A stretch of 64,000 bases of DNA from Williamsia soli. Its GTDB lineage: Bacteria > Actinomycetota > Actinomycetes > Mycobacteriales > Mycobacteriaceae. Positions within the stretch are counted from its first letter, which is position 1. Each line of letters begins with the position of its first letter. Under the pieces are notes generated by a model, which made no database searches, was not told where the DNA came from, and was given only the letters and a program-made list of their open reading frames with translations. The stretch covers positions 620,001-684,000 of the forward strand of contig NZ_JAFRDR010000003.1 of NCBI RefSeq assembly GCF_017377795.1, read 5' to 3'. A program made the translations under genes and the position numbers. Positions 3,046 to 37,437 of the stretch are shown here, in pieces.

Positions 3046-3212
3046 GGCTTTGCGATGTTCCGGGCCGCGGACGACGTTCCACCACTTGATCGACACCGAG
3101 CCGGAACCACTGACGTTCAAACGATTTCATCCGCTGGCCCGCCGTACGCCCGCTGGGTAATTTCCTTGACGACCGACAAAACGTCGGCCAGCAACTCGCC
3201 GAGGAGAATCCC

Positions 3213-3887
3213 GTGTCCACCATCCGTTCCGCTCGAACCGTCGCCACCGTCCTGGGAGTGGGCGCCCTCGGGCTGGGTCTGCTCACCGCTTGTTCCGACA
3301 GCTCAGACGATGCGTCACCGGCAACGTCCGAGAGTCAGGTGGCGACGACCTCCGAGAAGACGCCGGTCTCGCCCGAGATGCAGGAGTGCAGCCGCGAGGC
3401 CCCTACCGGTCCGCTGGCCGTTCCGACTTCGTCGACCGAGTACACCTCCGGCGAGTCCGCCTACTCGGTGACGCTTTCCGACGGGACCGAGAAATGCGTT
3501 GTGGTCGAATCTGATTCGAGCGGCGGAGACTTCGACTCCACCGACAAGGAGATAGACATCCGATTCGGCGACACCTCGGCCGGATTGCTCATCACCATCG
3601 ATGGCGAGAAGGAGGGCAATCTCCCGACCGAGGTCCCGCACCGGGTCGACGACGCTTTCATGGGTATGCAGGTCGACGGTGGATACTTCGCCGACAGCAT
3701 GCACAGCGGCTGCGAGGTCACGTTGACCGGACTCGACGACGAGATGATCGCCGGGGAGTTCACCTGCACCGACGTCACGTTGTTCGAAGACGGGCCCTTC
3801 AGCCTCGGCAGCGAGACCACCACCTCATCGCTACCCGAGGACACCACCATCACCGACGCCAAGGGCTGGTTCGTGTTGCGCGCGTGA
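3213..3887 (+). CDS. Putative secreted lipoprotein
   Basis: 224 residues with a GTG start and a GAGGAGA ribosome site. The signal peptide ends in a lipobox LLTAC with Cys27, followed by a Ser/Asp-rich linker, so the protein should be lipid-anchored on the outer face of the membrane. The mature part is acidic, with several cysteines, and matches no family I recognise. It converges on the flavoprotein gene, with 9 bp between the two stops. Confidence 0.75.
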   Translation: MSTIRSARTVATVLGVGALGLGLLTACSDSSDDASPATSESQVATTSEKTPVSPEMQECSREAPTGPLAVPTSSTEYTSGESAYSVTLSDGTEKCVVVESDSSGGDFDSTDKEIDIRFGDTSAGLLITIDGEKEGNLPTEVPHRVDDAFMGMQVDGGYFADSMHSGCEVTLTGLDDEMIAGEFTCTDVTLFEDGPFSLGSETTTSSLPEDTTITDAKGWFVLRA

Positions 3888-3896
3888 GCTACCTGA

Positions 3897-5321
3897 TCAG
3901 GAGTCGAGCGACTCCAGCAACTGCAGCCAGACCTCACTGACGGTCGGGTACGAGGGCACCGCATGCCGCAGGACGCTGGTGGGCACCTTGCCGACGATCG
4001 CGATGGTCGCGGCATGCACAAGCTCATCGACCTCGGGTCCCACAAAGGTCGCGCCGACGATCGTGTCGGTGGCCTTGTCGATGACCAGTCGGGCCCGGCC
4101 CTGGGCGTCGTCGCGGAGCAACCCGAATCCGGCGACGCCGGTCAACTCCACGTCGGCGATCGTGATGTCGAGGCCCTTGTCACCGGCATCCTTCTTCGTC
4201 AGCCCGACACTGGCGACCTGCGGGTCGGTGAAGACCACCTGGGGAACCGGGACATCATCAGGGACAACGGGTTCGGGTCTGCCCTCGGCGCGGGCTGCGA
4301 TCAGATGCCCGACGTTGCGGGCCTGGTACTTGCCCCAGTGGGTCAGCGCTGGACCGCCGGAGGCGTCGCCGACCGCATACAGCCAGGACGCGTCGCCGTC
4401 GACGGCGTCGAGTCCGACACCATCGCGGGCCGGGCGACGCCCGGTGGCGACGAGGACCTCGTCCGCGGTGAACTCCTCGCCCCCGGCGACCACGGTCACC
4501 TGATCGCCGTGGATGCGGCCGATTCCGGTGTCGTCGGCGACCGGCCGCCGCACCTCGGTGACGTCGACCTTCTGTCGGACATCGATTCCACTGTCGGCCA
4601 GCGCCTTTGCCACCAGTTTCCCGGCGAAGGGTTCGGACTTACCGAGGAGTGTCCCTCGCGAGAGCAGCGTCACGGAGCTACCGAGCGCAGACATCCAGGT
4701 CGCGGCCTCGCAGGCGACCACACCGCCGCCGACGACGATGAGCGACGCCGGGATCTCTCGCACCCCCGTGGCGTCGCGGGACGACCACGGCTGGGTGCCG
4801 GCGAAGACATCAGGGATCACCGGGGTACTGCCGGTGGCCACGATGACAGCCTGCCGGGCACGGATCGTACGGCCGGTGCCACCGTTGTCGACGACGACGG
4901 TCTTCTCACCGGTGATCACACCGTGGCCCCGGATGACGTCGATGCCGAGGCCACCCGCCCACTTCACCTGGCCACCGTCCTCGTACTGCTTCACCCACGC
5001 GTCGCGCCGCCGCAGGAGTTCTTCGGGCAGCAGTTTCTTCGCGACCTTGATCCCGTCGAGAGCGCGGGCGGCGGCGTGGACTTCGACGGGCCGGAGCAGC
5101 GCCTTGCTGGGCATGCACGCCCAGTAGGAGCACTCCCCGCCGAGCAGTTCGTGTTCGATGATCGCGGCGGTCCGGTCCGATCCGGCGATGGCGTATTGAG
5201 CGGCGACCTCGCCTGCCGGCCCACCACCGATCACGAGAACGTCGTACTCGTCCCCCGATTTCTCATCATCGAGTCCTGCGACTTCTTCTCTCGACTTCGA
5301 CGCGCTTGCAGCTGCCATCAC
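3897..5321 (-). CDS. NAD(P)/FAD-dependent pyridine nucleotide-disulfide oxidoreductase
   Basis: 474 residues. A Rossmann FAD motif IGGGPAGEVAAQ is at 31-42 and a redox pair C64-SYWA-C69 sits in GGECSYWACMPSKALLRP, a variant of the lipoamide dehydrogenase/mercuric reductase site. A second Rossmann motif VVGGGVVACEAA binds NAD(P)H, and the C-terminal dimerisation domain ends HAVPSYPTVSE, providing the catalytic His. Class I disulfide reductases of this SYWACMPSK type are common in actinobacteria with unknown substrate. It is not next to dehydrogenase-complex genes, so lipoamide dehydrogenase of the PDH complex is unlikely. Confidence 0.85.
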   Translation of the reverse strand: MMAAASASKSREEVAGLDDEKSGDEYDVLVIGGGPAGEVAAQYAIAGSDRTAAIIEHELLGGECSYWACMPSKALLRPVEVHAAARALDGIKVAKKLLPEELLRRRDAWVKQYEDGGQVKWAGGLGIDVIRGHGVITGEKTVVVDNGGTGRTIRARQAVIVATGSTPVIPDVFAGTQPWSSRDATGVREIPASLIVVGGGVVACEAATWMSALGSSVTLLSRGTLLGKSEPFAGKLVAKALADSGIDVRQKVDVTEVRRPVADDTGIGRIHGDQVTVVAGGEEFTADEVLVATGRRPARDGVGLDAVDGDASWLYAVGDASGGPALTHWGKYQARNVGHLIAARAEGRPEPVVPDDVPVPQVVFTDPQVASVGLTKKDAGDKGLDITIADVELTGVAGFGLLRDDAQGRARLVIDKATDTIVGATFVGPEVDELVHAATIAIVGKVPTSVLRHAVPSYPTVSEVWLQLLESLDS

Positions 5322-32046: not shown

Positions 32047-32418
32047 ATGGACTGGACACTCGAACTCGTCATCCTTCCCGTCACCGACGTCGACCGGGCA
32101 AAGGACTTCTACGAGAAGGTCGGCTTCAACGTCGACCACGACCACGTCGTCTCCGACGAGGTTCGCTTCGTCCAGATGACGCCGCCCGGCTCGGCCTGTT
32201 CGATCGCCTTCGGCAAAGGCATCACCGACGCCGAACCCGGCTCTGTGAAGGGGATGCAGGTCGTTGTCTCCGATATCCAGGAAGCCCACGACCACCTGCA
32301 GTCCGTCGGCATCGACCCCGGTGAGATCGACATCCAACCCTGGGGCCACTTCGTCGGCTTCGCCGACCCCGATGGCAACCAGTGGTCCGTGCAATACATG
32401 CCCTACCGCAACGCCTAG
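32047..32418 (+). CDS. VOC (glyoxalase/bleomycin resistance) family protein
   Basis: 123 residues with GGAGGAA upstream. One vicinal-oxygen-chelate fold of two beta-alpha-beta-beta-beta units: VILPVTDVDRAKDFYEKVGF at the start and WGHFVGFADPDGNQWSVQ at the end, the latter with the usual metal Glu replaced by Gln. Could bind a small hydrophobic molecule or act as a glyoxalase-like isomerase; activity is unknown. Confidence 0.85.
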   Translation: MDWTLELVILPVTDVDRAKDFYEKVGFNVDHDHVVSDEVRFVQMTPPGSACSIAFGKGITDAEPGSVKGMQVVVSDIQEAHDHLQSVGIDPGEIDIQPWGHFVGFADPDGNQWSVQYMPYRNA

Positions 32419-32425
32419 CTTCCTT

Positions 32426-32484
32426 TCGAGCGTGTAGTTGTCGCGGCATCGGCCGAGAATCCTTCGCGCTAACTACACGCTCGA
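32426..32484. repeat. Hairpin repeat at 3' end of DUF559 gene
   Basis: TCGAGCGTGTAGTT (32426-32439) and AACTACACGCTCGA (32471-32484) are perfect 14-base arms with a 31-nt loop. The stop codon of the DUF559 gene (32473-32475) is inside the right arm. The same arm sequence occurs at 33370 on the other side of the gene. Confidence 0.88.
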
Positions 32485-33327
32485 TCGGGATATCGCCTCC
32501 CGAACCCGGGCGACGACAACTCCGGGACGTTCCGCGAGCAACTCAGCGCTGACCCGCACAACGCGCCAGCCCGCAGCCTCTAGGTCCGCCCACCGGTCGA
32601 TGTCCCGTGAACGCTGCCGACGGTCTGTCCAATGGTGCCCGCCGTCGTATTCAACGGCGACTTTCCACCTCCGCCACCCCATGTCCAGACGGATGTAGAC
32701 GTGCCCGTACTCATCGCGCAGTTCGATCTGGGTCTCTGGCGCAGGCAGTCCAGCTCTGATCAGCAGCAATCTCGTTCGAGTCTCGGGCGGCGACTCTGCG
32801 CCGGCGTCGACGAGTTCGAGGACTCCTCGCATCTGTGCGAGACCGCGCGCACCCGGGTGCCTGTCGGCGAGTGCACAGACGTCGATCGCTTTGACCCCGG
32901 TGGCACCCATCAAAGAGTCCAGAACCTCGACGGCACGATCGGCATCCAGCCGCCTGCCGATATCGAACGCCGTCCGGGCCGGGGTGGAGGCAGGCAACCC
33001 ACTTGCTTGGCAGATCTCGTCGTCAGACAACCTACCGCTCCACACCACGATCCCTCGCGGCGATCGTCGCTCCATCCGATTGAGTTCGACCGCTGCATCA
33101 CATTCGATCCATTTGGTTCCGTGCAGGGCCGCCGCCGCCAAGCCGACGACGGTGACGGGCGACCCCGCCCACAACACCGCGGCCTCGGTCCGCACCCGCA
33201 GCGTGGGCTCGACCGAGCGGTGGACGTACACACCCCGGTAGATCGACACGTAGTCCTTGCGCAACTCGTATGGCGTGAGACGGCCAACCGCCACCGCCTC
33301 TGCGCCCAGAAAGGGCCTCTCCCCCAT
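32473..33327 (-). CDS. DUF559 nuclease-like protein with AbiEi-like N-terminus
   Basis: 284 residues from ATG 33327. The first half (GRLTPYELRKDYVSIYRGVYV, then a winged-helix-like region) resembles the N-terminal part of AbiEi-type antitoxin proteins. The C-terminal DUF559 domain (about 222-260) has VAVEYDGGHHW followed by RSRDIDRWADLEAAGWRVVRVS, a Vsr/PD-(D/E)XK endonuclease-like core with E226 and D228. Target and partner are unknown. The gene is bracketed by two related hairpins, its stop codon lies in one, and reading upstream of the ATG enters the other. It lies between a VOC gene and rpoC. Confidence 0.8.
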   Translation of the reverse strand: MGERPFLGAEAVAVGRLTPYELRKDYVSIYRGVYVHRSVEPTLRVRTEAAVLWAGSPVTVVGLAAAALHGTKWIECDAAVELNRMERRSPRGIVVWSGRLSDDEICQASGLPASTPARTAFDIGRRLDADRAVEVLDSLMGATGVKAIDVCALADRHPGARGLAQMRGVLELVDAGAESPPETRTRLLLIRAGLPAPETQIELRDEYGHVYIRLDMGWRRWKVAVEYDGGHHWTDRRQRSRDIDRWADLEAAGWRVVRVSAELLAERPGVVVARVREAISRSSV

Positions 33328-33369
33328 GCACCTTCGACGTGCTTGCGCAGCGAACGGATCCTCACCAGC

Positions 33370-33428
33370 TCGAGCGTGTAGTTGTTGCGGCATCGATCGA
33401 GACGACATCGCAACTACTACACGCTCGA
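33370..33428. repeat. Hairpin repeat upstream of DUF559 gene
   Basis: Arms 33370-33389 and 33409-33428 are 20 bases with one mismatch around a 19-nt loop. The outer 14 bases equal those of the repeat at 32426. It sits 43 bp before the DUF559 ATG and just downstream of the rpoC terminator. Confidence 0.88.
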
Positions 33429-33437
33429 CACACAAAA

Positions 33438-33465
33438 GCGGGCGCCCTCCGAAGAGGACGCCCGC
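33438..33465 (-). terminator. rpoC Rho-independent terminator
   Basis: On the minus strand, GCGGGCG-t-CCTC, a TTCG loop and GAGG-g-CGCCCGC are followed by TTTTGTG, 16 bp after the rpoC stop. This ends the rpoB-rpoC transcript. Confidence 0.88.
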
Positions 33466-33480
33466 CTTTGATGCGTTTAC

Positions 33481-37437
<3,957 letters not shown>

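Follow-up and report, generated by a model that had tools for sequence, protein, structure and literature searches.

Matching hairpins at both ends of a DUF559 nuclease gene in Williamsia: a possible REPtron-like module built on an unrelated enzyme

Why should a gene for a predicted nuclease carry the same type of hairpin at each of its ends? The question is raised by a locus in a Williamsia genome of 6.07 Mb in 25 contigs (G000), from which a stretch of 64,000 nucleotides, here called the window, was analysed as a whole; eight further Williamsia genomes (G001-G008) were available for comparison. The gene (32473-33327, minus strand) encodes 284 amino acids, with an AbiEi-like N-terminal part and a predicted PD-(D/E)XK (DUF559/MTES_1575) C-terminal part. 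Its neighbours, a glyoxalase-family gene on the left (32047-32418, plus strand) and rpoC on the right (33481-37437, minus strand), belong to conserved flanks. Two 59-nt quasi-palindromes bracket the gene, one at its 3′ end (32426-32484) and one on its 5′ side (33370-33428). They are 81% identical to each other and share one polarity, minus strand, set by a core that reads CTCGGCCGAT in the 3′-side hairpin (32448-32457, minus strand) and CTCGATCGAT in the 5′-side hairpin (33392-33401, minus strand). An earlier note on this DNA had placed inverted repeats with a common outer arm at these two positions, and both repeats are present there: the outer arm TCGAGCGTGTAGTT is exact in three of the four arms and carries one mismatch in the fourth. 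The same note had the stop codon lying in one arm and the upstream frame running into the other, which also holds. The TAG stop (32473-32475, minus strand) is part of one hairpin arm, and the open frame extends upstream of the model ATG at 33327, across the 5′ hairpin, as far as 33435.

Within the window the arm TCGAGCGTGTAGTT occurs four times at up to two mismatches, against 0.43 expected, and none of 100 shuffled sequences reached four. Folded as single-stranded DNA, the two hairpins give plus-strand z-scores of -4.8 and -7.0, values not equalled in 200 shuffles. An ordinary terminator was considered as a reading of these hairpins and rejected, because rpoC has a terminator of its own: an ordinary terminator-like hairpin (33433-33470, minus strand), common to relatives, stands beside the unit and outside it. 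No T tract follows the window hairpins.

Nine window-type hairpins, six of them from G000, two from the pair flanking a 62%-identical gene in G006 and one from a decayed copy in G007, aligned without gaps over 59 columns in a single polarity (alignment A5), with both hairpins of a unit pointing the same way. The core occupies columns 28-37; it is CTCGGCCGAT in four of the nine, and the remainder keep five invariant letters. The stems covary: 19 cells changed on both sides, compared with 6.5 ± 1.9 in shuffles (0/500 as high), and 95.1% of stem cells were paired, against at most 45.1% when the arms were slid. The number of further pair types was not raised, being reached by 370 of 500 shuffles. 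These shuffle counts are not probabilities, since the structure was drawn from the same, related sequences. Stem mismatches were also examined for a strand preference. G-T and A-C mismatches numbered 14 and 41 over 29 hairpins, a difference that is not robust and was dropped as evidence because 18 of the 41 sit in one loop-edge column.

We then considered the protein. Pfam matched its C-terminal part to DUF559 (1.3e-5, over the cut-off) and to MTES_1575, a REase family (2.3e-8, just below the cut-off), and AbiEi profiles matched the N-terminal part, the best at 1.5e-8. Across 30 paralogue sequences (alignment A6), E182, D215 and D228 are invariant and E226 is at least 90% conserved, which is the pattern of a predicted PD-(D/E)XK site. 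The AlphaFold2 model has a mean pLDDT of 91.9 and a pTM of 0.87. A Foldseek search of this model against the PDB returned no match with E below 0.001; the top match, with a TM-score of 0.80 over the target, was the catalytic domain of the homing endonuclease I-Bth0305I, at an E of 1.6e-3. I-Bth0305I is a Vsr-fold enzyme of the EDxHD family. The suggestion in the earlier note that a Vsr/PD-(D/E)XK-like protein occupies the place of a RAYT transposase is borne out to the extent that the modelled C-terminal domain appears Vsr- or homing-nuclease-like, with a best E of only 1.6e-3, and that the catalytic residues are kept. No transposase appeared among the Pfam matches (E <= 0.01) of the 30 aligned members, which were confined to MTES_1575, DUF559, AbiEi_1, AbiEi_4 and CMD. 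Homing endonucleases offer a further parallel, namely the existence of empty (single hairpin) and occupied forms of one site described below, at which gain and loss of the unit are not told apart. The present unit differs in having a full hairpin at each end rather than a split target and in its extra AbiEi-like part, and neither an intron nor an intein was seen.

The AbiEi-like part raises the possibility that the hairpins are double-stranded operators through which it represses its own gene, both ends being operators of one repressor and single copies elsewhere being decayed or recruited operators. The N-terminal profile matches agree with this, as does a weak fold match (E 0.032, ranked fifth by Foldseek) to the AbiEi-like protein Rv2827c. 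According to PMC7319586, AbiEi and the M. tuberculosis antitoxin Rv2827c bind inverted repeats in their own promoters, and the 5′ hairpin may therefore serve in autoregulation. The resemblance to type IV toxin-antitoxin antitoxins lies in those N-terminal matches; here the AbiEi-like part is fused to a nuclease domain, and the immediate neighbours are the glyoxalase-family gene and rpoC, with no DUF1814/AbiEii toxin among them. Repression would leave unexplained the second full hairpin with its stop codon, the 25 hairpins of one type found away from their gene in a single genome, the exchange of units at hairpin edges and a chimeric single hairpin (all below). We therefore consider an operator function unlikely as the whole explanation. 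It may nonetheless hold in addition to a hairpin-nuclease module, without competing with it.

In order to determine how general the arrangement is, one genome from each of 84,980 species was scanned with the paralogue alignment, giving 61 named loci, in genera that include Williamsia, Gordonia, Rhodococcoides, Arthrobacter and Aeromicrobium; some Williamsia loci duplicate genes of G000-G008. Three loci (L067, L079 and L088) carry the label Kitasatospora arboriphila NRRL B-24581, and L088 covers the rpoC unit of the Williamsia-group genome G005; the record looks mislabelled. Matched ends, scored by local alignment between the two ends of a gene with a threshold of 25, were found at 46 of the 61 loci and at none of 120 control ORFs, and the same test on window-type genes outside Williamsia gave 19 of 28 against none of 22 controls. 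The 28 are the window-type genes fetched from other genera of the family, in which 87 of 201 genomes matched at 1e-40. Controls were mechanical ORFs of the same loci, 200-420 codons long (150-420 in the 28-gene set), overlapping frames included. The threshold of 25 used in both surveys and in the genus count was chosen after the scores had been seen; at 18, 20, 22, 25 and 30 the counts were 49, 49, 48, 46 and 39 of 61 genes and 4, 2, 2, 0 and 0 of 120 controls. A stricter first detector called 29 of the 61. The mechanical placement of gene ends failed at some loci, for example L316 in the 28-gene set. The earlier note had asked whether such hairpins cluster at DUF559 genes; they are linked to these genes far more often than to controls, with single copies also occurring away from genes.

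Within the genus the picture was similar. Nine of 11 further DUF559-type genes tested in G000 had matched ends, each with different hairpins (for example 77 nt at L147 and 75 nt at L148); three more DUF559-profile matches in that genome (L010, L011 and L016) had no matched hairpins. Among the other Williamsia loci tested, 15 of 27 had matched ends, and every one of the other eight genomes contributed at least one; this count leaves out L029, which is the window gene itself, and L038 and L040, which are cut by contig ends. A clade formed by L031-L034 and L048 scored zero in the matched-ends test, as did L045, L053, L056 and L057. The position of the stop codon recurs: of 42 named units in which a hairpin was called at either end, 29 have a 3′ hairpin that covers the stop codon in part or begins no more than 20 nt from it. 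In a ranking of hairpins over such units, the cognate one at the 3′ end took first place in 22 of 42. Among the misses, many were outranked by a hairpin of the same family and some were poor calls. Hairpins of matching sequence at the two gene ends are therefore a real and general observation, and their sequence is specific to the gene lineage, the stems differing between lineages and matching between the two ends.

In other genera the stems at window-type genes are unrecognisable, but a core recurs near the centre of the hairpin. The motif CTCGGCCG, allowing one mismatch, was present in 18 of 44 flank hairpins of these genera (10 of 25 loci with a hairpin), against 2.3 expected; 300 shuffles gave at most 7, and among other hairpins of the same loci 4 of 31 carried it. 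This count takes in all 28 loci; with the six that lack credible hairpins dropped by hand, leaving 22, it is 17 of 40. The remaining flank hairpins in this set have different centres.

Hairpins of the window type also occur singly. A covariance model was used to score 150 of the roughly 3,100-3,900 candidates in each genome. At E < 1e-5 it identified nine places in G000 (two at the gene, seven single), six in G006 (two at the gene, four single), five in G007 (two at the decayed gene, three single) and three in G002. In the other five Williamsia genomes none of the 150 candidates per genome reached E < 1e-4, the best being 1.6e-4. The stems of the seven singles in G000 are of two types, TCGAGCGTG in four and CGAGACTGC or near it in three. 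The hairpins thus follow the clade of the gene; G002, which has the hairpins and no close window-type gene, is the exception. A second hairpin family, flanking L035 and L042, gave between 13 and 67 arm hits in every one of the nine genomes, where the reversed control pattern gave no hit. In G001, 27 listed hairpins of this family have their two arms spaced at 42; two of these form the pair at the gene and 25 lie away from it. For the 75-nt type of G000, a third copy lies 1.5 kb away and differs at 3 positions from the gene's 3′ hairpin. The joined flanks of five single CGATGATG-type hairpins, compared with G003, G004, G005 and G008, gave no clearly clean hairpin-only insertion; at one such site G003 lacks both the hairpin and 51 nt of its flank. 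In the case of the window type, a site in G002 aligns across without the hairpin, at only 75% identity.

At the 3′ end of rpoC the window unit is present in G000 only, and G001-G008 hold a different DUF559 unit, or a remnant of one. Instead of lacking hairpins, which the earlier note would have counted against its reading, these units of relatives carry them, of other sequence; only one was called in G005, and in G008 a shortened remnant lies between two. Flank identity between G000 and G007 is about 90% as far as 32416 and from 33430 onward, so that homology ends 9 bp before one hairpin and restarts 1 bp past the other, and the exchanged unit spans 32417-33429. The other unit points one way in G002, G006 and G007 and the opposite way in G001, G003, G004, G005 and the G008 remnant. 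From these flank edges and opposite orientations we infer that units have been replaced and inverted with edges at hairpins. Both the replacement and the inversion could result from homologous recombination, acting in the flanks and between palindromes. The prospect raised in the earlier note, of syntenic strains lacking the unit with clean ends, was fulfilled only in part: the edges do fall at hairpins, but none of the nine Williamsia genomes has a wholly empty rpoC site.

Unit and single hairpin could be compared directly elsewhere. The site of a single hairpin in G000 (C18:174686) is occupied in G006 by a full window-type unit (C88:13346-14353) and in G007 by a decayed one that keeps both hairpins and has lost most of the gene (C40:80765-81137, L140); G002 has a single hairpin there. 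We examined the positions at which the two hairpins of a unit differ from each other. Against the G007 unit, the G002 single hairpin agrees with the left hairpin at every one of the 8 sites that precede the core, and with the right hairpin at 8 of the 9 that come after it. The corresponding figures are 6 of 7 and 8 of 8 for the G000 single against the G006 unit, and 6 of 7 and 7 of 8 for the G002 single against that unit. G000 set against G007 gives a less clean pattern (LLLRRLLL, then all R). The single hairpin thus reads as the left half of one of the unit's hairpins joined to the right half of the other, with the switch in the core. The data agree both with a single gain of the unit by the ancestor of G006 and G007 and with its loss from G000 and G002.

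A second site, with a single hairpin in G000 and a unit in G001, is too diverged for this half-and-half test. Two W. muralis sites have a single hairpin in one genome and a hairpin-DNA-hairpin arrangement with other cargo, of 0.6 and 12.6 kb, in another; there the switch was not informative or not in the core. Both are differences between G004 and G003. At G004 L258:502-1216 a short non-DUF559 frame (fewer than 200 codons, judged by eye) lies like a cassette between two hairpins where G003 (L281) has one, and at G004 L254/L259 a 12.6-kb segment lies between two hairpins where G003 (L277) has one, with a switch that is not in the core.

A rival view is that the hairpins are passive repeats moved by some other enzyme, that the nuclease genes are passengers or residents, and that recombination between direct repeats has left the single-hairpin sites behind as scars. 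In its favour, deletion between direct repeats also yields a half-and-half hairpin, and the frame between two hairpins in G004 is not a DUF559 gene. Passengers, however, would not be expected to have lineage-specific matching hairpins, nor would one protein subfamily be expected to share a core across genera. We regard passive repeats as quite unlikely to account for the data. A stronger proposal than mere association is that the Vsr/homing-type nuclease, with its AbiEi-like part, inserts the unit into the conserved core of a single hairpin that was already there, converting an attB-like site into two hybrid attL/attR-like hairpins, and that it, rather than a recombinase or HuH transposase, also spreads the singles. 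This would be a new site-specific mobile module, in which a REP/RAYT-like system evolved a second time; we put it forward tentatively, as a possibility we doubt somewhat more than we believe.

The reading that we favour, with confidence short of firm, is the less specific one that the unit is a hairpin-nuclease-hairpin module, REPtron-like in its working and based on an unrelated enzyme. It is supported by the matched ends, stem covariation, recurring core, dispersed single hairpins, exchange at rpoC, the site with either unit or single hairpin, and the conserved catalytic residues; binding, cutting and moving of the hairpins are inferred. On this model the protein would bind stem and core of the hairpin, probably in an extruded or single-stranded form, and the nuclease domain would nick or cut it near the core. 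Host repair, or recombination between hairpins, would then copy, insert or remove hairpins and units. Cutting followed by repair would keep the two ends of a unit alike and spread single hairpins; loss of a unit would leave one chimeric hairpin, and a cut hairpin would admit a unit. Against the module, there is no biochemistry, and loss of a unit could be plain deletion between direct repeats without any nuclease. Further points against it are the 12 of 27 other Williamsia genes without matched ends, the G002 hairpins without a close gene, the weak Foldseek E-values, the 12.6-kb site whose switch is not in the core, a number of further pair types that does not exceed the shuffles, the lack of a clearly clean hairpin-free site for the five single hairpins tested, and the plasmid and phage results given below.

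The comparison with REP/RAYT systems, which the earlier note had drawn in suggesting a possible REPtron-like unit, is supported as regards flanking and dispersal; action on the hairpins remains inferred. According to PMC3733652 and PMC8266576, in REP/RAYT systems cognate imperfect palindromes flank the nuclease gene, scatter singly, co-evolve with the enzyme and may give a flanking ORF its stop codon. PMC3733652 defines REPs as palindromes of 20-40 bp, one end of which carries a GTAG or CGTC tag, and PMC2817692 gives more than 100 copies as usual. Like the REPtrons and REPINs of RAYT (TnpAREP) systems, the present units combine a DUF559 gene flanked by palindromes, whose cognate function is inferred, with dispersed single copies and a stop codon within a palindrome. 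They differ in the enzyme, predicted to combine a PD-(D/E)XK Vsr fold with an AbiEi-like part rather than being an HuH tyrosine (Y1) transposase, and in the hairpins, which are mostly about 50-80 nt (59 in the window) with a central conserved motif and no end tag. Single window-type copies (7 in G000), and even the other type with its 13-67 arm hits per genome, are fewer than the usual >100 REPs. With a non-HuH enzyme and hairpins that lack the size and tags of REPs, the window module is not a member of REP/RAYT. No link between DUF559 and hairpins was found in the titles and abstract beginnings searched, most subscription papers and bioRxiv lying outside the scope of that search. If the module is real, a common actinobacterial family of proteins of unknown function gains a role and a candidate substrate, and nucleases have become partners of dispersed palindromes on more than one occasion. 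Since every gene brings its own predicted substrate, the idea is directly testable on many protein-hairpin pairs.

DUF559-type genes were matched in plasmid records in small numbers (4 and 7), on large replicons of Tsukamurella, Arthrobacter, Nonomuraea and Collinsella, and a search of 50,697 phage records with one paralogue as sole query gave no match. With few plasmid genes and no phage genes, spread between replicons is not evident.

Finally, the hairpins might act as RNA, as transcript ends, stability elements or small RNAs, with gene conversion keeping the two ends similar. The Rfam model RF02470 (Ms_IGR-8) weakly matches the window hairpins, at 18-21 bits against a cut-off of 44, and its sub-cut-off hits in three genomes are hairpins at DUF559 genes. 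The missing T tract, the separate terminator adjoining the unit and a G-T versus A-C count without robust strand preference do not favour an RNA function, which leaves the exchange and chimera data unexplained; we judge it very unlikely. The Rfam hits have an interest of their own. From 121 genomes of the family, 30 RF02470 loci were fetched, of which four (representing three genes, in G036, G065 and G114) contain a DUF559 gene that has a hairpin at either end. All hits there are below the cut-off and coincide with the gene-end hairpins (G036:C1:5354519-5355526, L355/L358; L347; L351). For the two hits over the cut-off (G058 and G074), no DUF559 gene lies within 1.5 kb; in G074 the RF02470 places number 11 and are scattered. 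Ms_IGR-8 is catalogued as a Mycobacterium small RNA, unlike the window hairpins, which fall far below its cut-off. Given the sub-cut-off hits at DUF559 genes, Ms_IGR-8 may be one of these hairpin elements, which is a lead only; were the module reading correct, dispersed hairpin sets would be explained, perhaps including this one catalogued mycobacterial small RNA. One genus of the family (g29, with G036, G058, G074, G114, G125 and others) shows an unusual expansion, a single genome holding as many as 12 window-type DUF559 genes (E <= 1e-40).
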